Shown: positions 5,956-58,547 of the stretch, piece after piece | Layout: each line of letters starts with the position of its first letter | Position numbering within the stretch: the first letter of the stretch is position 1 | From: an uncultured Elusimicrobia bacterium | GTDB lineage: Bacteria > Elusimicrobiota > Elusimicrobia > UBA1565 > UBA9628 | Direction of reading: 5' to 3' | NCBI GenBank assembly: GCA_903830945.1 | Contig: CAIKVT010000081.1 | Location: 62,001 to 126,000 of the forward strand | Length of the DNA stretch: 64,000 nt | Notes under the pieces: generated by a model | The model's input: only the letters and a program-made list of their open reading frames with translations | Databases searched by the model: none | What the model was told of the DNA's origin: nothing | Program-made: the position numbers and the translations under genes

Positions 5956-5982
5956 AAAAAAGTTACATGGATGGAGGGCCGG

Positions 5983-8124
5983 ATGCCAGAGAAGATCGCT
6001 GCGAGATTTCGGGACGAGTGGCTGGCGCGCGTCGTTTCGGCCATGCCGGAGGTGGGCGCCGCGGCCGTGGAGGCCGTCCGCGCGGCGGGCCAGCCGATAC
6101 TCTGCCACGCTCTCATCGACGAAGGCAAGTTGACGCGCGAGCGCCTGGCTGGGGCGGTTCTGGAATCGCTGCGCTTGCAGACCGTCACGCTCACGGTCGA
6201 GCTCGTAGATAAGATGGCGCTCAGCCTTGTCACCGAGAAAGTCTGCCGGCGCTACGGCGTGGTGCCGCTGCGCTTGGAGGGTGAGACGCTGGAGTTGGCC
6301 ATGGCCAATCCCCTCGACCTCGTGGCCCAGTCGGACATCGAGGCGCTCACCGGCCGTTCTGTGCTCCCCCGCTTCGCCCTGCCCAACGAGGTCTCGGCCT
6401 GCCTGGATGAGATTTTCAACCAGGAGGCCGCGATCTTTGAGCTTCTGGAAAAGATCGGCACCGAAGAGAATGTGGAGATTTTGGGCGACATGCCGGGGGG
6501 GGTAGCCGGGGAAGAGGAGGTCGGCTCCCCGGTCATCAAGCTGGTCAACTCCATCCTCGCCCAGGCTGTCCATCACAAGGCCTCCGACATCCACATCGAG
6601 CACGAGGAGCGCAACAGCCACATTCGTTTCCGTATCGATGGGGCGCTTAAAAACATAATGAGTTTGCCCAGCCGTCTGGGGACCGGCCCGATGGTCTCGC
6701 GCATCAAGATCATGTCGAATCTAGACCCGTCCATCCATATGCGCCCGCAGGACGGCCGCACCAAGATCCGTCTGGGCGGAGCTGAGATCGGCCTGCGGGT
6801 CTCGATCCTGCCCACCGCTTTCGGCGAGAAGGTGGTCATGCGCGTGCTCGACAAGCGCGTTGCCCAGGTGCCCTTCGAAAAGCTCGGATTCTCTCCGGAG
6901 ACGGCTCGAGAGATCGATCTCTGCCTCAATGCCACGCAGGGAATCCTCCTGGTCACGGGGCCCACGGGTTCGGGCAAGACCACCACGCTTTATTCGGTGC
7001 TCAATAAGTGTCGTGCGGAAGCCACGAACATCGTGACCGCGGAAGATCCTATCGAATATAAGCTGGAAGGTATCAACCAGGTGCAGGTCAACGAGAAGCA
7101 GGGTTTGAGTTTCGCCAGCGTCCTGCGCTCGGTGCTGCGTCAGGACCCGGATGTCATCATGGTCGGCGAGATCCGCGACCAGGAGACAGCCGACATCGCC
7201 TTCCAGGCCGCCATGACTGGGCATCTGGTCTTCTCCACTTTGCACACCAATGACACGGTTTCGACCATCGGGCGGCTTGTGGATATGGGCGTGGATCGCT
7301 TCAAGATCGCCCCGGGACTGCTGGCCATCACCGCCCAGCGCCTTGTGCGCCGCATTTGCCTGTCGTGCCGTGCGCCCGTGCCGGAAGATGACATGGACCG
7401 TATCGTCTTTAAGGCGATGCGTGAGCACGGCCTGCCGGCGCGCTCCTGGAAGGGGGCGGGCTGCAATGATTGTGACGGTTCCGGCTACAAGGGCCGAGTT
7501 TCCATTGTGGAGCTCCTGGTCTGCGATCAAGCGATCAAGGACCTCATCAGCACGGGAGCGGCTGAGGCCGTCATTCGCCAGAATGCCGAACGTGCCGGCA
7601 GCCTGCGCACGCTGACCCACGACGCGCTCTGGCAGTTATCCGAGGGGAACACGGACTTAGCCGAGATTCTGCCCTATCTGCATATTAAGGACGAGCCCGC
7701 TGCGGCGGTCGCTGTGGCAGTCGCGCCGCCGAGGTCCGGGGGCAAACCGGTGGTCCTGGTCGCTGACGATGATGCCATCATGCGCCTGCTGGCGCGCAAG
7801 GCCCTGGAAGGGCAGGGTTTCGAGGTGCGCGAAGCGGCCGACGGTGAGGAGGCGCTCACCCGCATCTCCGAGGGCGCGCCCGATCTGCTCTTGCTCGACC
7901 TGGACATGCCCAAGCTCACCGGTCTGGATGTCATCAAGGGCGTCCGGGGGACCTTGGGTCTTCCGGGTTTGCCCATCATCATGCTCACCGCCCAGGCGGA
8001 GGACCAGTCCCAGGAACTGGCATTCTCTTTAGGTGTCGATGACTACATCGTCAAGCCCTTTAAGCCCGGCATCGTGACGGCCCGGATCAAGGCGGCGCTG
8101 CGCCGGGCAGGCCTGCAGATCTAG
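5983..8124 (+). CDS. PilB/GspE-family secretion ATPase fused to a C-terminal receiver domain
   Basis: About 713 residues. An N-terminal MshEN/T2SSE_N-like region (1-150) precedes the hexameric ATPase core with Walker A GPTGSGKTTT (about 326), an Asp box and Walker B region (DPDVIMVGEIRD), and a His box (GHLVFSTLHTND). A tetracysteine zinc site follows (CLSC near 460 and CNDC near 495), typical of type IV pilus or type II secretion assembly motors. Residues 588-713 form a CheY-like receiver domain with the DDD acidic pocket, phospho-acceptor Asp639 in LLLLDLDMP, Thr in MLTAQ and Lys in IVKPF. The start is taken at MPEKI because GGAGGG lies just upstream; an in-frame ATG at 5971 is the alternative. 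The fusion implies that motor activity is controlled by phosphorylation. The kinase gene follows after 8 bp. Confidence 0.92.
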   Translation: MPEKIAARFRDEWLARVVSAMPEVGAAAVEAVRAAGQPILCHALIDEGKLTRERLAGAVLESLRLQTVTLTVELVDKMALSLVTEKVCRRYGVVPLRLEGETLELAMANPLDLVAQSDIEALTGRSVLPRFALPNEVSACLDEIFNQEAAIFELLEKIGTEENVEILGDMPGGVAGEEEVGSPVIKLVNSILAQAVHHKASDIHIEHEERNSHIRFRIDGALKNIMSLPSRLGTGPMVSRIKIMSNLDPSIHMRPQDGRTKIRLGGAEIGLRVSILPTAFGEKVVMRVLDKRVAQVPFEKLGFSPETAREIDLCLNATQGILLVTGPTGSGKTTTLYSVLNKCRAEATNIVTAEDPIEYKLEGINQVQVNEKQGLSFASVLRSVLRQDPDVIMVGEIRDQETADIAFQAAMTGHLVFSTLHTNDTVSTIGRLVDMGVDRFKIAPGLLAITAQRLVRRICLSCRAPVPEDDMDRIVFKAMREHGLPARSWKGAGCNDCDGSGYKGRVSIVELLVCDQAIKDLISTGAAEAVIRQNAERAGSLRTLTHDALWQLSEGNTDLAEILPYLHIKDEPAAAVAVAVAPPRSGGKPVVLVADDDAIMRLLARKALEGQGFEVREAADGEEALTRISEGAPDLLLLDLDMPKLTGLDVIKGVRGTLGLPGLPIIMLTAQAEDQSQELAFSLGVDDYIVKPFKPGIVTARIKAALRRAGLQI

Positions 8125-8132
8125 GAGGAGCC

Positions 8133-9275
8133 ATGGCCAAGAACGTTCTATTGACGGAATTCCTGCCCGCAGAGAGGGCGGCAGCCGATGACCTCCAGCG
8201 CCAGATGGAGGTCATTAAGTCCTTCTTGGTGCTCCCGGAGCTTCTTGATGCCATGATGGGCTTCGCCCTCATCCTTAATAAGCAGCGCCAGGTCGTGTTT
8301 GTGAATGTGGCATTCCTGACCTTTCTGCGCGAGCACGAGGCCCTGCCGCATGTCGGCCAGCGTGTCGGGGAGCTGTTCCACTGCGTTAATTCTACGCGCT
8401 CTCCGAGCGGCTGCGGTACGACGAAGTATTGCCGGGTCTGCGGGTCGGCCCGGGCCGTGGCCGCAGCCGTCGAGGGCCAGGCCGCGGTTCAGGAATTCCG
8501 TCTTCAGTCCCAGGTTTCTGGCGAGGATCTCGACTTGTTGGTCCGCGGCACCCCGTTCAATGTGGGGGAAGATGGGTTCGTCATTTTCGCGGCCGTGGAT
8601 ATCAGCCATGAGAAGCGCCGCCGCGCTTTGGAGCGCATTTTTTTTCATGACGTCACTAACACAGCGAGCGGCATCCAGGGCCTGGCCAGCATCATGATGG
8701 ATGTCGAGCCCGATGTCGCGATCCATGATTTCGCCCCCAAGGTGAAGGTGGCTTCGGATCATCTGATCGAAGAGATCATCTCTCAGCGGGACCTGTCCTC
8801 GGCTGAATCCGGTGAACTCAAGACAAAAACTGCGGCGGTCAACAGCAAAGGCCTGCTGGAGGATTTGGCCACACTCTACTCTCATCATCAGGTCGGCAAG
8901 GGCCGCCATATCGTTCTGGCTCCAGAGTGCTCCGATGTCGCCATGATCACGGACCGCACTCTGCTGCTGCGCGTGTTGGGTAACCTCATTAAGAACGCGT
9001 TGGAGGCTTCACCCTCTGGCGCTGAGGTCCGGGTCTCCAGCCGCCGCGAGGGCGACCGGGCCGTCTTCACGGTCCACAATCTCACTGCCATGCCGCGTGA
9101 GATACAGCTACAGGTCTTCCAGAGGTCCTTTTCCACCAAGGGCAGCGACCGTGGCCTGGGGACATACAGCATCCGCCTGCTGAGCGAGCGCTACCTCAAG
9201 GGCAAGGTCTCGTTCACCTCATCTCCCGAGGATGGGACGGTGTTTACCGCGGTCTATCCGCTGACGCTGGATTGA
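8133..9275 (+). CDS. PAS-domain sensor histidine kinase with a four-cysteine motif
   Basis: 380 residues, no membrane span, so cytosolic. A PAS-like sensor (about 40-160) contains Cys84, Cys94, Cys100 and Cys103 (C-x9-C-x5-C-x2-C, ending GCGTTKYCRVCG), which could bind a metal or sense redox state. The phospho-accepting His172 lies in a short H-box FFHDVTNTASG. The ATPase domain has the N-box NLIKNALEAS and the G-box GLGTYSIRLL. It follows the PilB-REC gene by 8 bp and is its likely cognate kinase (inference). The last 32 bp overlap the convergent GT4 gene. Confidence 0.9.
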   Translation: MAKNVLLTEFLPAERAAADDLQRQMEVIKSFLVLPELLDAMMGFALILNKQRQVVFVNVAFLTFLREHEALPHVGQRVGELFHCVNSTRSPSGCGTTKYCRVCGSARAVAAAVEGQAAVQEFRLQSQVSGEDLDLLVRGTPFNVGEDGFVIFAAVDISHEKRRRALERIFFHDVTNTASGIQGLASIMMDVEPDVAIHDFAPKVKVASDHLIEEIISQRDLSSAESGELKTKTAAVNSKGLLEDLATLYSHHQVGKGRHIVLAPECSDVAMITDRTLLLRVLGNLIKNALEASPSGAEVRVSSRREGDRAVFTVHNLTAMPREIQLQVFQRSFSTKGSDRGLGTYSIRLLSERYLKGKVSFTSSPEDGTVFTAVYPLTLD

Positions 9276-13270: not shown

Positions 13271-15004
13271 TCACTCGAGGAGCTTATCGAGGAGCTGGGC
13301 GTCGTCCGCCGGTTTGGCGGGCTGCTTGCCCTCTCCCGCCTGCCTCCTGGGCGCCTTGCGTGCGGGCTTCGGCATCTGCTCCAGAGCCGCAGCGGCTTCG
13401 TCTCCAGAGGCGGTTGACTTTTGGGTCGAGCCGGACTCGGGAGCGGTCACCGGCTGTATGTCGGCTTTTTCCTCGAACATGCCGGGAAGGCCCCTTGCCG
13501 ACGGTTCCTGCCTCGATGTCGGCGTCTTGGCTGCTGCCGGCTGTTTCGGTTTGACGCGGACCTTCCGGCGTCTGGCGGCCGGGGGTTCGCCGAAGAGAAG
13601 GGCCTTGGCCGTGGCGTCGTTGTCGTACGGCGTCACTGTTTTTTCTCCCAGATTGGCCTGGAACATGTAGATCGTCTGCTTACCGGCTGGGGACTTGCCT
13701 CCGTAAAAATTCACCTGAAAGGTCCCCTCGCCCAGCTTCTCGGCCATCCAGGAGAGAGCGGGATTTTTTCCTGGATCAACGGACGCCTCCAGGCGCTGGC
13801 CAATGAGTGTGACCTTATCGCTGCTTGGCCAGTTCTTCACTAGATCGATGGCCTGATGTTTGAACTCTTCGAGCTGGGCCTCTGGCGAGGGCGCCGGGGG
13901 CGTGATCGCGGGCGGAGGAGTCAGAGGGATCGTCGCGGTCGGGTTCGCGCGGCGTGGCGGACGTTGACGGCCCGGGATGAGCCCGGCCTGGAAGGCGAGT
14001 GCGCCCCCGGCGACGAGCCCGAAGCCCACTAAGGCCAGGACCAAGCCTTTCTTGCCTGATTTCGGCTGGGCTTGGTCTGCGGCCATATCGGAGATGACCA
14101 GCTTGGAGCTTGTGCCGGCCGGACGAGTCGTCGGGCCTCCTGGCGGCAGGCCCGAGAGCAGCGCGGGCGGATGGTGCCCTGGGAACAATGGAACGGGCGG
14201 CGGCACGGAGAGTCCCGGCGGCGGCGCATCGATCTGGAAGGAAGCGGGCGGCGGAGCGGAGAGTCCCGGTGGCGGCGCATCGATCTGGAATGAAGTGGGC
14301 GGCGGCGCGGATGTGACGCCGTCCTGACGGTCGTAAAGAGATGCGCTGGTCATCATGGGCGGAGCAGTGGAAGTTTTGGGCGGCAGTGAGGGGGTGGAGG
14401 TCCGCGGGGATTTGAGGAGTTCCACGTCGGCCATGAGGTCGGAGACGCTTTGGCGTTGTTTATCCAGCGAGGTCTCGATGTCCTTGACCATGCTGCTCAC
14501 ACCGGTGATTGAACTCTTTACCTCTTGGACTGTGGACTCTACGCCTTTGACTTCGCTTTCCACGGACTTGACTTCGGTTTCGACCGACTTCTCCAAGGCC
14601 ACGGCGTTGTCGATGGTCTCCCGGAGCTGTGCCACGGCGGCCAGGCGCAGCTCGAAAGACTTCATCCCTGCCTGGAATTGGGCGATGGAGTTTTCCAGTA
14701 GGGTGACTTTTTCCTGGAGGCTGCCGAGAGAGGTGAGGTCTTTATTCGTTGGTTCCGGAGGCAGGCCGGCATGGCGGGCGCTCGCGGGGAAGCTGTTTTT
14801 TCCCATCGCGTCCAACTGGGTGGTTTTGACCATCGAGCTGGAGAGTCCGGGCACCGTTGCGGCGCGCTGCCAATCCCCCAGGCGGGTGCCCTTGCGCCCC
14901 TCCGGGCAGACTAAAGTCTCGGCCGAATAGCCGGGCAACTGCGCGAGGTCATTGGCGTCGTATGGCCCGCAGACCTCGTTGTTTTGGAATATCCAATATT
15001 TCAT
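13271..15004 (-). CDS. GYF_2 (DUF4339) domain protein with coiled coil, Pro-rich linker and membrane span
   Basis: 577 residues. It begins MKYWIFQNNEVCGPYDANDL, a GYF_2/DUF4339 domain (1-60) of a type that binds proline-rich or cytosolic partners. A Ser/Thr/Val/Glu-rich coiled coil follows (about 95-195, with VEKSVETEVKSVESEVKGVE heptads). A Pro-rich region contains two near-identical units around FQIDAPPPGLS. A single hydrophobic span lies near 325-345, then a Pro/Ala linker and a C-terminal extracytoplasmic domain (about 385-475). The product is predicted to have one span with its N-terminus in the cytosol. It heads the envelope operon but is 156 bp from the next gene. Precise role unknown. 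Confidence 0.75.
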   Translation of the reverse strand: MKYWIFQNNEVCGPYDANDLAQLPGYSAETLVCPEGRKGTRLGDWQRAATVPGLSSSMVKTTQLDAMGKNSFPASARHAGLPPEPTNKDLTSLGSLQEKVTLLENSIAQFQAGMKSFELRLAAVAQLRETIDNAVALEKSVETEVKSVESEVKGVESTVQEVKSSITGVSSMVKDIETSLDKQRQSVSDLMADVELLKSPRTSTPSLPPKTSTAPPMMTSASLYDRQDGVTSAPPPTSFQIDAPPPGLSAPPPASFQIDAPPPGLSVPPPVPLFPGHHPPALLSGLPPGGPTTRPAGTSSKLVISDMAADQAQPKSGKKGLVLALVGFGLVAGGALAFQAGLIPGRQRPPRRANPTATIPLTPPPAITPPAPSPEAQLEEFKHQAIDLVKNWPSSDKVTLIGQRLEASVDPGKNPALSWMAEKLGEGTFQVNFYGGKSPAGKQTIYMFQANLGEKTVTPYDNDATAKALLFGEPPAARRRKVRVKPKQPAAAKTPTSRQEPSARGLPGMFEEKADIQPVTAPESGSTQKSTASGDEAAAALEQMPKPARKAPRRQAGEGKQPAKPADDAQLLDKLLE

Positions 15005-53691: not shown

Positions 53692-54858
53692 TCAGCGCAG
53701 AACGGTGTGCGTGGGCGACGCCGCGGCCGAATCGTCCTCGGTCACCGTCAAATCGATGCATCCCAATTCCCTTTGGTCGGAGGTCTCCACGCGCACGCGC
53801 CAGCGACCCGGCTGGTAGCGGCTCTTGATCGTGTCCGCCCGGAATCCGCCCTCGCGCCCGCCGATGATGTCGAGCGGCATGACGTCGGACTCCTGCCAGC
53901 CGGCCACGAGGTCCAGGAAAAGCCAGCGCACTTGCAGTCTATCCTTGAAGCGCGCGGGAGAAAACACCGAGATGAAGCAATGGACCTTGTCGCCCGGTCG
54001 GGAGAGAAAGCTCTGGTCGCCGCGCTGCCAGAACTTCCAGCGCGGGCGGGTCGTGGTGAGGACGAATCGGTCCCCCACGCGGCTCACGTCGTGATAGATC
54101 CCAATCGCAGAAATGGAGAGGGGGACCGGTGGGATGAGCTTGGCGAAATAGAGCCACGTAAAGCATGCCAGCACAGCGGCGAAGGGGATGAGCACGTGCT
54201 TGCATATCGCGTAGGGTTGGCTGGACAGGCGGCGCTGCAACAGCCACGCTAAAGCCCCCATGACCAGCGCGGCCGCAGCCATGGAGCCAATGAAGGGCCA
54301 AGTCCCGATCGAGCCCACCAACATGGGCACGAGGTAGGTGCAATAGGAGATCAAGCAGAGGCTCAAAATCCCCATGCGCATCGTGGTGCCGGATGTTTTG
54401 AAGGGCTTGAGCTCGTTGACGGCCAGCATCGCCGCGAGGATCAGCAGGAAGGTCAAGGAGGCACCCAGCGAGGCGCTCTTGAAGTAGAACACGGTATAGA
54501 TGTTGAGCAAAGTGCCCAGCATGAAATGGGTGGCGGTCGTATGATAGCGCCAAAAGGTCTGCAGCCGCCGGGGAGGAGAAAATCCGCCGTAGATCTCACT
54601 CAACTCCAAGCCCGTCAACAGCGCGCAGAGGAAGAGATAGGCCGCCTGTTGGATGATATTGCCCAGGCGGTCGATGCGGCCCACGGCCAGCATGTCGAAA
54701 AGAAAGCCAGCGATGAAAAATCCGGCCGTGCAGGCCGGCTCATGCTCGAAATAGAACTTCTTGACACGCGCGCCCAAGGGCCAGGACGTCGGCGCAGAAG
54801 GCGGAAGGATCGGCGATGGGTTCAGGCCAATCATGGGAGGCAGCCCGCCGGCCGTCAC
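53692..54858 (-). CDS. Membrane protein with C-terminal DUF2914 domain
   Basis: 388 residues. Seven or eight hydrophobic spans fill residues about 45-275. The periplasmic C-terminal domain (about 280-375), with RWKFWQRGDQSFLSRPGDK, SRYQPGRWRVRVET and ELGCIDLTV, matches DUF2914, often found in envelope or sensor proteins. The ATG overlaps the stop of the WD40 gene (ATGA), so they are translated together. The downstream neighbour is the caspase remnant. Function unknown. Confidence 0.8.
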   Translation of the reverse strand: MTAGGLPPMIGLNPSPILPPSAPTSWPLGARVKKFYFEHEPACTAGFFIAGFLFDMLAVGRIDRLGNIIQQAAYLFLCALLTGLELSEIYGGFSPPRRLQTFWRYHTTATHFMLGTLLNIYTVFYFKSASLGASLTFLLILAAMLAVNELKPFKTSGTTMRMGILSLCLISYCTYLVPMLVGSIGTWPFIGSMAAAALVMGALAWLLQRRLSSQPYAICKHVLIPFAAVLACFTWLYFAKLIPPVPLSISAIGIYHDVSRVGDRFVLTTTRPRWKFWQRGDQSFLSRPGDKVHCFISVFSPARFKDRLQVRWLFLDLVAGWQESDVMPLDIIGGREGGFRADTIKSRYQPGRWRVRVETSDQRELGCIDLTVTEDDSAAASPTHTVLR

Positions 54859-55856
54859 TTCGCTCCGGCTTGCGGCTCAGCGGTCTTGGCTTCAGCCAAG
54901 GCCTTCGTCACGTCCCTTAGGCGCAGGGTCCCGTCGTTGCTCGCGGAAAGCGCGCGTCCGCCGTCCGGGGAGAATGCCACCGCGCGGATGACGTCCGTGT
55001 GGCCGCTCCAGACCTTGAGGCATCTGCCGCTGGCCGCGTCCCACAATCGGAGCGTGAAATCCTCGCCGCCCGATAGGACCAGTCGTCCGTCAGGGCTGAA
55101 AGCAAGGGCTCGGATGGGTTTGCTATGGCCTTTCCACAGTCCGCGCAGCTCTCCGGTTGAGGTGTCCCAGACCTTGATGGTGTTCTCCCGGCCTCCGGTC
55201 ACGCCGGTCTTCCCATCCGGGGATAAGGCAGCCGCTAGAATGATTCCGGTGATGCCTTCCAAACGTGTGACGACCTTGCCCTTGGTCACGTCCCAGACCT
55301 CGGAGTCTCCGCCACCGGTTAGAGCCCATCTGCCGTCGGCAGAAAAGGCCGCGGCCGCCACGTAATCGGAGCGTCCTCCCCAGTATTCGACCTCATGGTC
55401 GCTGGCGAAATCCCAGAGCTTCAGGGTGCGGTCGCTGCATCCGGAGATGACCTTGCCGCCGTCCGGCGAGAAGGCGGATACGTAGATGAAGACGCCGTGG
55501 CCGGGATAGACGAGGACCGGCTTGCCCGTGGCGATGTCCCAGCTCCGAAAGGAGAGTTCGTCGCTGACGGAGAGGGCGGTCACGCCGTCCGTGGAGAAGG
55601 CTACGGTCGTCACGGGGCTCTCGTGGCCTGCGAATATCTTCAAGGTCTGGCCCTTGGCTACATCCCAGAGCCGCACCGTCTTGTCCTGGCTACCGGAGAG
55701 GGCTCGGGTCCCGTCCGGAGAGAAGGTCACGCAGGTCACATCGTCGCCATGTCCGGTCCCAGTCCAGCCGGCCGTGAATTCTTTGGCCGCCGAGGCCGGG
55801 AGCGCCCATAAAACCGTCAAGGCGGCGAGGATGGGCCTGCGCAGGCGATAGGTCAT
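54855..55856 (-). CDS. Secreted WD40 beta-propeller protein
   Basis: 333 residues with a signal peptide (about 1-24, AALTVLWALPASA). Seven WD40 repeats follow, most with the AFSPDG ... LSGS.D ... LWD pattern, for example TFSPDGTRALSGSQD with VRLWDV, and AFSPDGGRALSASND with LRLRDV at the end. Such propellers are scaffolds. The start is MTYRLRRP with GGAGGAG upstream; a longer frame lacks a signal. It is translationally coupled to the DUF2914 membrane protein. Confidence 0.9.
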   Translation of the reverse strand: MTYRLRRPILAALTVLWALPASAAKEFTAGWTGTGHGDDVTCVTFSPDGTRALSGSQDKTVRLWDVAKGQTLKIFAGHESPVTTVAFSTDGVTALSVSDELSFRSWDIATGKPVLVYPGHGVFIYVSAFSPDGGKVISGCSDRTLKLWDFASDHEVEYWGGRSDYVAAAAFSADGRWALTGGGDSEVWDVTKGKVVTRLEGITGIILAAALSPDGKTGVTGGRENTIKVWDTSTGELRGLWKGHSKPIRALAFSPDGRLVLSGGEDFTLRLWDAASGRCLKVWSGHTDVIRAVAFSPDGGRALSASNDGTLRLRDVTKALAEAKTAEPQAGAK

Positions 55857-55912
55857 GGGATTCTTTCTCCTCCGGAGTCCGGTCAGTCCACTCAGGCGCT
55901 GGCCCCGGATGG

Positions 55913-56158
55913 CTATGCCTTCTTGATCAGGCGCGTGATCCAGACCAGGACCACGGCTCCTAAAAAAGCAACGACGATCGCTCCGATGATCCCTCCACCA
56001 GGCCAGATCCCCAGCATGCCGAAGAGCCATCCACCCACGATGCCGCCCAAGGTGCCGAGGATGATGTCGGCGATGACGCCGTATCCTCCCCCTTTCATCA
56101 TCTGGCCTGTGAGCCGTCCTGCGATGAGCCCGACAACCATGAAATAGATCAAACCCAT
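55913..56158 (-). CDS. GlsB/YeaQ/YmgE family membrane protein
   Basis: 81 residues with three short spans and the family pattern VVGLIAGRLTGQMMKGGGYG, ILGTLGGIVGGWLFG and GGGIIGAIVVAFLGAVVLVWI. These proteins are common, stress-linked inner-membrane proteins of unknown mechanism (formerly transglycosylase-associated). Confidence 0.93.
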   Translation of the reverse strand: MGLIYFMVVGLIAGRLTGQMMKGGGYGVIADIILGTLGGIVGGWLFGMLGIWPGGGIIGAIVVAFLGAVVLVWITRLIKKA

Positions 56159-56182
56159 AATCGCCGCCCCCTTACGCCTCGA

Positions 56183-56626
56183 TCAGATTATACCGCGCCG
56201 CCTATGCCTCGGCCTTCGTGTCGGACCCTGGAAGTCTCGCAGGATTCTAGCCGTGATCTGGCGATCCGTCATCTTGTCGGCTGTTGCCATACCGATGATG
56301 CGTCCGCTCAACCCGGTCTTCCCCAAACGCTTTTTCAACTCGTCCTTGGCTTCCCCGGGGCCGAATATTTGGATGGCCTCAGCATCACGGATACATAAGA
56401 TGACCTTGTCGTAGTAGATGCTGAGGTGGCCCATGATGACCGTTTCCCGCATATCATCCGATGGCGATTGCTGCGGACCATACTGAGTCTTAGAATGCGG
56501 CCCGCCATAAGGTCGGAGTTGTTTCTCGACGTTGGATTCGATCCGTATCGTCACGTCCCCTTTATCCGCAACCACCACGATGACGGCCTTCCTGTGATCG
56601 ATCCAAAGGCCCGCTTTTGTCTTCAT
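56183..56626 (-). CDS. Conserved hypothetical protein, possible eRF1/Pelota-like fold
   Basis: 147 residues. MKTKAGLWIDHRKAVIVVV, the ESNVEK region, then HLSIYYDKVILCIRDAEAIQIFGPGEAKDELKKRL resemble small proteins of the bacterial archaeo-eukaryotic release-factor (baeRF) or host-attachment type. No catalytic residues can be assigned. The basic Arg-rich C-terminus (PTRRPRHRRRG) could contact RNA. The fold call is tentative. Confidence 0.6.
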   Translation of the reverse strand: MKTKAGLWIDHRKAVIVVVADKGDVTIRIESNVEKQLRPYGGPHSKTQYGPQQSPSDDMRETVIMGHLSIYYDKVILCIRDAEAIQIFGPGEAKDELKKRLGKTGLSGRIIGMATADKMTDRQITARILRDFQGPTRRPRHRRRGII

Positions 56627-56640
56627 AGATCCCTCCCTCG

Positions 56641-56956
56641 CTATATCAGCTGCTTGCTGATATGTGCCCAGGAGCCTTTGAGCTCTTCGACCATGTATTT
56701 CAACTCCGAGCCGCCGACGCGCTTGACCCGTCCATAGCGCTGCGCGGTCTTGTCCACGAGCCTGTGGTAGGCTTCTCGATCTATCTCCTTAAGGTTCTCC
56801 AATTTCTCAAGCACCTCGCCTTTCAGCTGCAAGGATCATCCTAAAATCCTCTCGCGGTTCTTGGCCCCCCCGTTTTCCGCGGAGGAGGCAGGCTCCTGCT
56901 GCGGCAATGGCAGCAATCCCGACTCCCGCGCCGATCAGCTTTTCCCGATGCCTCAT
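56641..56956 (-). pseudogene. Split small membrane-anchored protein (frameshift plus in-frame TGA)
   Basis: An N-terminal piece from ATG 56956 reads MRHREKLIGAGVGIAAIAAA and continues to RGKRG, one membrane span. At a run of seven G the continuation GAKNRERILG is found only one frame over. That frame then meets a TGA, and beyond it continues with LQLKGEVLEKLENLKEIDRE to 56641. In relatives I remember, a Trp occupies the TGA position, in a KxW...KGEVLEKLE pattern. The last 63 codons are open from a TTG at 56832 and could still be made. It is probably a decayed gene, or sequencing error at the G-run plus a nonsense change. Confidence 0.55.
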
Positions 56957-56989
56957 ATTTCTTCTTGCGCCTTTCGGCTGAGACGGGGT

Positions 56990-57430
56990 TCAGACGGGCT
57001 TCTCGGCCGTCGAGCTGCTATCGCTGAGAGGTTTCATCTTGTCGTAGATCTGCTGCGCCGAAACCCGATTCTCGGACGAGTCGAAGGTGCCCACGGTTAC
57101 GCGTATCCGTGTGACGCGGTCGGACTTGCGAAGTAACTCGACGATCACTGGCTGTCCTTGCGCGTTGCGCGCCTCGAGCTTGCCGTAGGCCTCGTCCTTC
57201 TTAGACGCGGTCACCGGCATCTTCAATTCCATCAGGGCCGCGTTGGCTGCATCCCAGGTCTTGTCCAGGGGAGACGCTTGGTACACCTGCAGCGTGTTGT
57301 GCATATACTTGGCTGTGCCGTAGGCGGTCCCGCCCGCGGCCCCGGCCAGCACCGCCAGGAAGCAACCCTGCAGCGAGCCCAGCGCCGCTAGGGCCAGCCC
57401 AATCAAGAGCGCAGCTCTAAAGGTCTTCAT
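56990..57430 (-). CDS. DUF3568 family lipoprotein
   Basis: 146 residues from MKTFRAAL. The signal peptide ends in the lipobox LQGC. The following AVLAGAAGGTAYGTAKYM, ASPLDKTWDAANAALMEL and IYDKMKPL segments match DUF3568, a small secreted family of unknown function. The start overlaps the upstream gene by 14 bp. Confidence 0.8.
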   Translation of the reverse strand: MKTFRAALLIGLALAALGSLQGCFLAVLAGAAGGTAYGTAKYMHNTLQVYQASPLDKTWDAANAALMELKMPVTASKKDEAYGKLEARNAQGQPVIVELLRKSDRVTRIRVTVGTFDSSENRVSAQQIYDKMKPLSDSSSTAEKPV

Positions 57431-57737
57431 TTGACAAGTCCACCGAGAAACGGCAGGTCCGGGATGTGGATTTCTGACCGTCATTCTGCGGCTGGATCCT
57501 GGTGATTGCTTGGTGTTGTCCCGACATATAACCCGACCAGTCATACCACCAATACCCTTCGGCTTGGCGGCAAGCCTGCCAGTCATTGCTATCGATCGAT
57601 ATCTCTACCCGGCTCGCCTCTCTCGCCTCGATGCGGAATGTGTAATCGGGGCTGGTGACCACTTCTTTGTCCTGAGGATAATCCACCGTGATCTCTGCCG
57701 CGGCTACCGATTTCCAAGTTGAATGCATTTTTCTCAT
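57417..57737 (-). CDS. Small Ig-like/carbohydrate-module-like protein
   Basis: 106 residues from MRKMHSTWKS with AGGAG 7 nt upstream. A single beta-sandwich-like domain: ITVDYPQDKEVVTSPDYTFRI, VEISIDSNDWQACR and GYWWYDWSGYMSGQH, the last pattern being reminiscent of Ig-like or CBM48-like folds. No signal peptide, so probably cytosolic. The preceding 85 nt hold the second copy of the shared promoter-like module. Confidence 0.65.
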   Translation of the reverse strand: MRKMHSTWKSVAAAEITVDYPQDKEVVTSPDYTFRIEAREASRVEISIDSNDWQACRQAEGYWWYDWSGYMSGQHQAITRIQPQNDGQKSTSRTCRFSVDLSNEDL

Positions 57738-57811
57738 TTTGATCTCCTGCGCGATCCCGCTGCGCCTGGCTCTTCCGCCTATTCTCATTTTATCCCCATG
57801 CCGATATTCCA

Positions 57812-57852
57812 CCAATACGGAATTATACGGAGGCCCTAGGTATAATCCCGGA
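57812..57852 (-). promoter_or_regulatory. Shared promoter-like module, copy 2
   Basis: On the plus strand it reads ATACGGAATTATACGG then CCCTAGGTATAATCCCGG; on the minus strand TATAAT (57822-57827) lies about 85 nt before the gene start. See copy 1 at 53342-53385. Confidence 0.5.
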
Positions 57853-57884
57853 GAGACCGCAGCGCGCCGGGGAGGTGCCGGGCG

Positions 57885-58547
57885 CTATCGGAGGGAAGTC
57901 AGCCCGTGCTGGATGGCGTACTTGGTAAGACCCGCGACCGTGCCGATCTTAAGCTTGCGCGACAGATGCTCCCGGTGCGCTTCCGCCGTCCGGACGCTGA
58001 TGCCCAGCTTGCGCGCGACTTCCTTATTGGCTAAGCCCTCGGCCAGAAGGGAAAGCACTTGCCGTTCCCGGTCGGTCAATGCACCGGCGCCTTCGGTGTC
58101 GGCCGAAGGCTTCGACCCGGGAGCCAGGATAGCGTCAGTCATGTCGAAAGGAAAATGCAGGCCGCCCTTGAAGACTTGCTTGATGGCATCGAGCAGATGC
58201 TCCGTCGGCTCGTCTTTCATCACATAGCCATGCACGCCGCACCGGGCCATCCTCACCACATATTCCTCGGTGGCGTGGATGCTGAAAGCCAAGAGCTTGG
58301 CTTTGGGGACGATCTGGCGTAGACGCTTTGCTAATTCCCCGCCGTCCAAAGACGGGAGGTTGATATCCAGTACGATGACGTCGGGTGAGAGCCGCTTGGC
58401 CTTACGCAGGGCTTTTGGGGCATCACCAGCATCCCCGACCACCACGATTGAGTCTTGGTGGGACAGGTACGAGCGCACACCGTCCCGCACGATGGGATGG
58501 TCGTCCACCAAGAAGACCTTGATCCGGCCCATGTCCCTGTCTTTCAC
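57885..58547 (-). CDS. NarL/FixJ-type response regulator
   Basis: 220 residues from GTG 58547, which overlaps the stop of the kinase remnant (GTGA); ATG 58532 is the alternative. The receiver domain (1-120) has the DDH pocket, phospho-acceptor Asp in VIVLDINLP, Ser in LAFSIHA and Lys in YVMKDEP. The C-terminal LuxR helix-turn-helix (about 155-215) has LTDRERQVLSLLAEGLANKEVA and SVRTAEAHREHLSRKL. It is intact, while its partner kinase is broken, so it may be regulated by another kinase or acetyl phosphate. Confidence 0.92.
   Translation of the reverse strand: MKDRDMGRIKVFLVDDHPIVRDGVRSYLSHQDSIVVVGDAGDAPKALRKAKRLSPDVIVLDINLPSLDGGELAKRLRQIVPKAKLLAFSIHATEEYVVRMARCGVHGYVMKDEPTEHLLDAIKQVFKGGLHFPFDMTDAILAPGSKPSADTEGAGALTDRERQVLSLLAEGLANKEVARKLGISVRTAEAHREHLSRKLKIGTVAGLTKYAIQHGLTSLR

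Follow-up and report, generated by a model that had tools for sequence, protein, structure and literature searches.

A pilus-type motor ATPase with a fused receiver domain and an adjacent histidine kinase in Elusimicrobiota: a candidate for direct phosphorylation control

Receivers that act on the ATPases driving pili have been described in a few systems, as separate proteins. Among the closest is EmvR from Xanthomonas oryzae, a lone receiver that binds PilB directly and lowers its ATPase activity by ~40%, an effect that needs the conserved Asp and Thr residues, being lost in the D15A, D59A, and T87A variants; also, a histidine kinase binds EmvR (PMC11973254). In Synechocystis, a phosphomimic form of the receiver protein Rre6 binds the pilus motor PilT2 (PMC7656254), and in the Pil-Chp system of Pseudomonas, the CheY-like receivers PilG and PilH steer the pilus extension motor (PMC12632253 and PMC11656802). 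For PilG and PilH, a 2024 review mentions no reported interaction of either with PilB (PMC11656802), which leaves it undecided whether they work directly on the motor, and in the literature surveyed, direct biochemistry comes only from EmvR. A second mode of control is found in the MshE/PilB motors gated by cyclic di-GMP (c-di-GMP) through the MshEN domain, which one sentence of a published report already states to occur together with receiver (REC) domains (PMC5013675). Here, we describe pilB-REC, a gene for a pilus-type motor ATPase with a receiver fused to its C terminus, and the histidine kinase gene that follows it, both located in a stretch of 64,000 nucleotides (the window; assembly GCA_903830945.1, contig CAIKVT010000081.1, positions 62,001 to 126,000 of the forward strand) from an uncultured bacterium of the phylum Elusimicrobiota. 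Based on the sequence, the conservation, and the surroundings of this pair, we propose with moderate confidence that the adjacent kinase would gate the motor by aspartyl phosphorylation of its receiver.

The motor-receiver protein and the adjacent kinase

The pilB-REC gene (5983-8124, plus strand) codes for a protein of 713 residues. Its open frame spans 5971-8124, the likeliest start being the ATG at 5983, with GGAGGG upstream, and this ATG is residue 1 in the numbering used here. Three Pfam domains are matched above their curated cut-offs, MshEN (PF05157, E 5e-18, 6172-6429), T2SSE (PF00437, E 5.1e-127, motor domain at 6523-7668), and Response_reg (PF00072, E 1.1e-27), the receiver extending over 7753-8088 according to Pfam, the alignment, and AlphaFold2. 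With 424 bits for T2SSE against a cut-off of 24.9, and 96.9 bits for Response_reg against 30.2, the protein belongs by sequence to both the T2SSE and the receiver superfamilies. The receiver signature residues D595, D596, D639, T669, and K691 are present, D639 (codon at 7897-7899) being the predicted phospho-acceptor. This confirms the PilB/GspE motor with a C-terminal CheY-like domain, and its Asp639, that a sequence-only reading of the window had described. In the motor domain, K332, E354, E396, H421, and four Cys (459, 462, 494, and 497) are found, which we take to represent the Walker A (K332), catalytic Glu, Walker B region (E396), His box, and four-Cys motifs. At the N terminus, a D-E-W signature (residues 11-13, codons at 6013-6021) is the same in all 14 proteins of alignment A1. 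The closest sequence match in the PDB is 5tsg (E 2.7e-124), which places the protein among the kin of PilB, PilF, and GspE. In the AlphaFold2 model of the monomer (mean pLDDT 89.4, pTM 0.66), the motor and the receiver are folded confidently, and the Ala/Pro-rich linker that joins them (7678-7752) is predicted to be disordered; because residues 570-581 show a pLDDT <50, the receiver appears to be tethered rather than rigidly packed.

The histidine kinase gene (8133-9275, plus strand, 380 residues) starts after a gap of 8 nt, and its GGAGGA ribosome-binding site (8124-8129) overlaps the stop codon of pilB-REC. The protein combines a PAS-like domain, a phospho-acceptor helix with an HDxxN motif, and a HATPase_c domain (PF02518, E 1.1e-14, 55.2 bits vs a cut-off of 26.4). 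Its H-box reads FFHDVxN, where H172, D173, and N176 are invariant in 14/14 family members, and His172 (codon at 8646-8648) is the predicted phospho-donor. Thus, the HATPase_c match and the H-box His identify the next gene as a histidine kinase, at the distance that had been noticed in the sequence. The PAS domain named in the same reading is weak in the window protein itself (PAS_4, E = 0.064, below the cut-off) and is recovered in the family, 4/14 members matching PAS_8 with a best E of 7.4e-8. A stretch of four Cys in the PAS region (C84, C94, C100, and C103; 8382-8441) is invariant in 14/14 relatives and could possibly form a metal (zinc), Fe-S, or redox site. Judging by a reading of its sequence, the kinase is probably soluble. 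Glycosyltransferase genes flank the pair on both sides, and because both lie on the opposite strand, the operon consists of pilB-REC and the kinase only. The gene list of the surroundings holds no separate response regulator beside the pair, in agreement with the earlier reading.

Conservation of the pair, of its sites, and of its genomic surroundings

In all the counts given here, the phylum is Elusimicrobiota, represented by 294 genomes of 90 genera. A survey of ATPase-REC fusions, proposed as a check in the sequence-only reading, finds the family in 36/294 genomes and 17/90 genera (family profile, E 1e-180 or better), together with fusions in other phyla, and the pairing with a kinase recurs. 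The surroundings were read at 42 ATPase-REC loci with codon-weighted gene calls, the A+T-rich loci L208, L209, L227, and L233 being read as open frames. A kinase orthologue lies directly downstream of the motor gene in eight other species (L210, L212, L214, L219, L220, L221, L222, and L223), with gaps of -4 to 22 nt and an identity of 45-50% to the window kinase; they are members of a different family (f13) within the class. Moreover, in genome G285, the motor gene (L232) ends with its contig after the motor domain, and a second contig, C42, terminates in a receiver end that directly precedes a kinase orthologue (L296). This receiver end scores 152 bits, like the receivers of the window family, and L232 and L296 are most likely a tenth pair split over two contigs. 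In L231, a fragment of the kinase is found downstream of the motor.

The trees of both proteins agree. For the ATPase, a tree from a quick method, which raised a warning about long branches being joined, gives the f13 members as the sister group of the window protein (Shimodaira-Hasegawa-like approximate likelihood ratio test, SH-aLRT, 99); the two further copies in its genome branch elsewhere. For the kinase, the sister of the window protein is a group with all the linked f13 kinases in it (bootstrap 92, SH-aLRT 97, not starred). The ATPase subfamily of the window has 17 rows in the tree, comprising nine intact pairs, seven motors without kinase, and one that stops at a contig end (L232). With nine intact pairs and one split, the two genes form a conserved operon that is inherited together, as expected for a cognate pair. 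Since the window pair is linked although it branches outside f13, an ancestral pair followed by later losses would be the simplest reading of these sequences, the tree alone being no proof of it. Also, the kinase family (E <1e-40) is present in 24/294 genomes, 18 of which carry pilB-REC, whereas about 3 would be expected if both were independent, a co-occurrence that is inflated by related genomes. When the surroundings of the window and of the f13 loci are compared by eye, only the pair is common to them. Within f13, a gene for an FKBP-type peptidyl-prolyl isomerase (L213:8302-9054) and its look-alikes follow the motor or the motor-kinase genes in many loci.

The sites of both domains were compared in 39 aligned full-length members of the phylum, a set that differs from the 39 genes of the neighbor count given below; both hold several copies per genome and close relatives, so that their members are not independent cases. 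In the receiver pocket, D639 and K691 are invariant (39/39 each), T669 is T in 36, S in two, and I in one, D595 is D in 35 and E in four, and D596 is D in 38 and N in one. The motor residues K332, E354, and E396 are conserved in 39/39. This conservation suggests that both the receiver switch and the motor are active. Of these members, 36/39 carry the D[EN]W signature, compared with 1/25 plain relatives of the phylum. It is missing only in three members that lie outside the main branch of the quick tree (L233, L235, and L234), ATPase-REC proteins in the phylum being therefore not one clade. One of these loci, L234:3578-8149, from a genome of another family, holds two ATPase-REC genes in tandem.

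The MshEN region was searched for the published c-di-GMP motif, a 24-residue sequence, RLGxx(L/V/I)(L/V/I)xxG...LxxxLxxQ, expected in two copies, or a relaxed form of it. No copy of either form is present in any of the 39 ATPase-REC members, including the N-terminal region of the window protein, whereas 16/25 plain relatives of the phylum carry at least one copy of the relaxed motif. Imperfect motifs can still bind c-di-GMP, according to the report on this domain (PMC5013675). The distribution is consistent with a family that would have switched its input from c-di-GMP to phosphate.

A link with two-component genes is also observed across the whole class of fusions. Among the ATPase-REC genes with >=400 nt on both sides (n = 39), 21 have a directly adjacent receiver or kinase gene on the same strand, vs 0/22 plain T2SSE genes in the phylum and 3/75 in other phyla (Fisher p 9e-6 and 2e-9, respectively). 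If the window-type pairs and both L234 rows are left aside, the count is 12/28 (p 4e-4 and 5e-6); since the sequences counted are related to each other, these p values are guides only. The script gave 23/39, from which two L234 positives were removed, their receiver neighbors being the tandem sister gene and a gene ~1.2 kb away, and L090 and L214, which have neighbors of this kind, were excluded for their short flank. A narrow kinase profile was used, and the kinases upstream of L174 and L154 escaped it, so that the counts for other phyla may be too low. The neighbors are diverse. The second copy of the window genome (L018) has two kinases nearby, one with HAMP and the other a REC-kinase whose gene overlaps that of the motor, together with a PAS protein and a lone receiver; L085 has a REC-kinase-REC-REC protein, as does L230, and a lone receiver. 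By profile matches, L087 and L216 have an L085-like arrangement and L086 has a shorter hybrid, while L083 has a REC-kinase-REC and L226 a CHASE-PAS kinase as neighbor. A constant motor-receiver beside changing kinases would be expected if the receiver is the input port. Outside the window subfamily, ten loci (L020, L080, L081, L082, L088, L089, L208, L209, L227, and L235) have no two-component neighbor on the same strand.

For other phyla, the best 80 loci of a scan of named genomes were fetched, and five of them contain T2SSE-REC fusions, with the receiver at the C terminus (Calditrichota and Acidobacteria bins), at the N terminus (Marinobacter sp. C7 and a Rhodoferax bin), or internal (a Rubrobacter bin). 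In the class of Marinobacter, a full-length REC-MshEN-T2SSE protein is present in 6 of the 274 genomes searched, Marinobacter included. All seven Pseudomonadota loci read (L174:3465-7509 from Marinobacter sp. C7, L154:942-5065 from Rhodoferax sp., and L282-L286, with genes named by similarity to L174) show, in this order, a small GTPase, a kinase, and the REC-MshEN-T2SSE motor, the gap between kinase and motor being 0-33 nt. The GTPase matches the Pfam family Arf and is presumably MglA-like. In these proteins, the receiver residues D35, D36, D79, T107, and K130 and the motor residues K510 and E574 are conserved in 7/7. The ATPase tree separates L174 and L154 from the window family and joins them with the phylum member L234 (support 85-94, none starred), and on these sequences, the motor-receiver fusion of Pseudomonadota likely arose separately. 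Other observations from these searches are a plain PilB-type gene in a Buchananbacteria bin, with a receiver encoded in its own open frame downstream on the same strand (L141:5779-7506 and downstream), perhaps an unfused version; a locus, L103, where the match extended beyond the ATPase part, as it did in L141; and a single plasmid record with >=80% query coverage, at 36% identity, in a search with the Marinobacter protein.

The proposal of a gated motor builds on features that are directly observed, namely, the domain order, the intact pockets, the conserved operon, the agreeing trees, the absence of the c-di-GMP motif, and the absence of an adjoining platform gene. According to it, pilB-REC and the kinase would be a two-component system with a pilus-type motor as its output domain. 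The PAS kinase would sense an internal cue, perhaps redox or metal by means of its four invariant cysteines, and would autophosphorylate on His172 and pass the phosphoryl group to Asp639. The HDxxN motif suggests that the kinase may also act as a phosphatase and remove this group. Then, the tethered receiver would alter how active the hexameric motor is or how it docks onto a shared type IV pilus platform, and the signal would set filament assembly with no need of transcription. In this scheme, sensing probably switches the motor directly, not through gene expression. Regarding the sign of the effect, inhibition may be a fair first guess by analogy, because EmvR lowers the ATPase activity of PilB in a non-competitive manner.

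Alternative readings and the place of the motor in its genome

One alternative concerns what the receiver does to the motor. It could be a phosphorylation-dependent localization tag or docking module, directed to the pole, the platform, or other receivers, with the catalytic rate unchanged, a reading that we regard as possible but rather unlikely. It agrees with the linker, which varies from 16 to 89 residues in the 39 aligned members, with 39% Ala+Pro and predicted disorder, and with the pTM of 0.66 of the monomer. The small GTPase encoded beside the Pseudomonadota version points in the same direction, as does the polar localization of PilB in Pseudomonas, which needs PilG phosphorylation (PMC12632253). 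However, EmvR shows that a receiver can change the catalysis of PilB (PMC11973254), and the monomer model cannot separate docking from catalytic control.

A second alternative, to which we give a similarly low probability, keeps the phospho-control and changes the machine, the motor then serving not a motility pilus but either a competence pilus or a type II-like secretion pseudopilus. The scores for the PilB equivalog (TIGR02538, 528.9 bits vs a cut-off of 675.65) and the GspE equivalog (TIGR02533, 528.3 bits vs 630.25) are nearly equal, and the protein falls below both cut-offs. Nonetheless, the best Foldseek matches of the model are 5tsh and 5oiu (target TM 0.86 and 0.92), the nearest solved folds being those of PilB and PilF, and on the basis of the model, the protein is PilB-like by fold, although outside the PilB equivalog. 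Also, the genome has a PilM-N-O-Q-like/PilB/PilC gene cluster (L017); for this and the other neighboring genes, the names PilM/N/O/Q, PilC, and Tad are our assumption from the appearance of the sequences.

The window genome (3.24 Mb in 84 contigs) contains 15 T2SSE matches, three of them in ATPase-REC genes, the window copy, L018 (contig C24), and L020 (C1). Seven matches exceed 360 bits (C69, C60, C24, C58, C81, and two on C1), and an eighth gene of PilB size, on C31, scores 144.6 bits. T2SSF platform domains are found at three loci only (C58, C60, and C29). Seven strong T2SSE matches are thus faced with two PilC/GspF-type platforms and one Tad-kind pair, and in this genome, no platform locus is on the same contig as an ATPase-REC gene. 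The best reading of pilB-REC is that of a supernumerary pilus motor. A wider picture, which we offer as speculative, is that across the phylum, interchangeable motors exchanged c-di-GMP gating through MshEN for aspartyl-phosphate gating; several motors per genome, some with their own kinase or relay, would compete for one platform, and cues, here perhaps redox or metal through the cysteine-bearing PAS kinase, would choose the motor. In this picture, the fusion of motor and receiver with an adjacent kinase would have arisen at least two times, with opposite domain order. Two other regions of the window have counterparts elsewhere. The proteins encoded at 13271-15004 and at L016:2686-4761 share similar N-termini, which we take to be GYF-like, and the L016 gene immediately precedes the plain PilB-PilT pair of this genome. 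At 53692-58547, where no pilB-REC gene is called, the genes, a NarL-type regulator and two neighbors of unknown role, are similar to those around the pilB-REC gene of L079, from a genome of the same genus.

A third alternative is that the kinase mainly serves another response regulator, the fused receiver being fed by other kinases or by acetyl phosphate and the adjacency reflecting co-expression only. We consider this unlikely, but it draws on several of the observations that weigh against gating by the adjacent kinase. In the window subfamily (n = 20), 10 members have the kinase, one has a fragment, and nine have none. Seven of these nine (L211, L213, L215, L217, L218, L224, and L225) retain both the acceptor Asp and the Lys; the other two, L228 and L229, are fragmentary and outside the tree. 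Also, 6/24 genomes with the kinase family have no pilB-REC match, and among 17 further kinase-family loci, 15 have no motor gene next to them (L091-L096, L098, L287, and L289-L295), L097 and L288 being cut too short to tell. One of the unlinked kinases, L289:1473-3128 (genome G110), is directly followed on the same strand by a receiver gene, perhaps a separate partner. The genome has 76 receiver and 47 HATPase_c domains above the cut-offs, which makes cross-talk or another target of the kinase possible. Moreover, the kinase departs from the canonical form, since HisKA is not among the families matched by the 14 kinase-family members at E 0.01, and the G1-box position is N316 in 14/14. Typical histidine kinases have an Asp in the G1 box, and this replacement may make nucleotide binding unusual. 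Regarding the motor, no pilin, PilC, or PilM-Q genes are seen beside pilB-REC in the gene list of the window. In the Acidobacteria fusion (L175:5425-7998), the receiver pocket is lost (E639 and A691), so that a fused receiver need not be phosphorylated. Finally, for EmvR, phosphotransfer from the kinase ColS was not detected (PMC11973254). Against a different main partner of the window kinase, the pair is the only element shared by the window and the f13 loci, the trees agree, and the window operon has no other receiver gene.

The prediction of the sequence-only reading, direct phospho-control of the motor rather than control through transcription, is thus kept in part. The conserved pocket, the kinase partner in eight further species, the agreeing trees, the two-component genes beside the class, and the Pseudomonadota parallel argue for it, whereas nine of 20 subfamily members lacking the kinase and 15 kinase loci elsewhere speak against a strict scheme of one kinase for one motor. 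It is very improbable that the receiver is a pseudo-receiver, a structural add-on with no phosphorylation as the Acidobacteria fusion would suggest, because the acceptor Asp and the Lys are invariant in the 39 phylum members and kinases or receivers recur beside the motor gene.

Comparison with described systems

Direct gating by an adjacent kinase would place the window pair next to EmvR and PilB, where a receiver acts directly on a PilB-type ATPase. However, EmvR is a separate protein, and the kinase that binds it, ColS, has its own regulator, ColR, whereas the window receiver is fused and its kinase is encoded in the same operon. In the Pil-Chp system, PilG and PilH are also separate and are fed by a CheA-like kinase, unlike the single chain and simple PAS kinase found here. 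Rre6 and PilT2 differ in that the motor is one of retraction and that both are separate proteins. With the c-di-GMP-gated MshE/PilB motors, the window protein shares the MshEN-T2SSE architecture but not the motif, absent in 39/39 members. A further likeness is that of the Pseudomonadota REC-MshEN-T2SSE proteins, in which a motor is fused to an intact receiver and a kinase gene is directly adjacent, although the receiver is N-terminal, the ATPase belongs to a different branch of the tree, the kinase is upstream, and a GTPase is added. Because this counterpart occurs in Marinobacter sp. C7, among others, the idea is accessible outside the uncultured lineage.

In the literature searched, which comprised papers available without subscription, no paper was found that describes an ATPase-REC motor accompanied by its own kinase, or the Pseudomonadota operon. 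The action of receivers on pilus motors is already known in trans, from EmvR and PilB and from Rre6 and PilT2, and what would be new here is the fusion together with its own kinase. In such a natural fusion, with a kinase gene next to it, the stoichiometry is fixed and the target is given, and phosphate, motor activity, and docking would be measurable in one purified chain.

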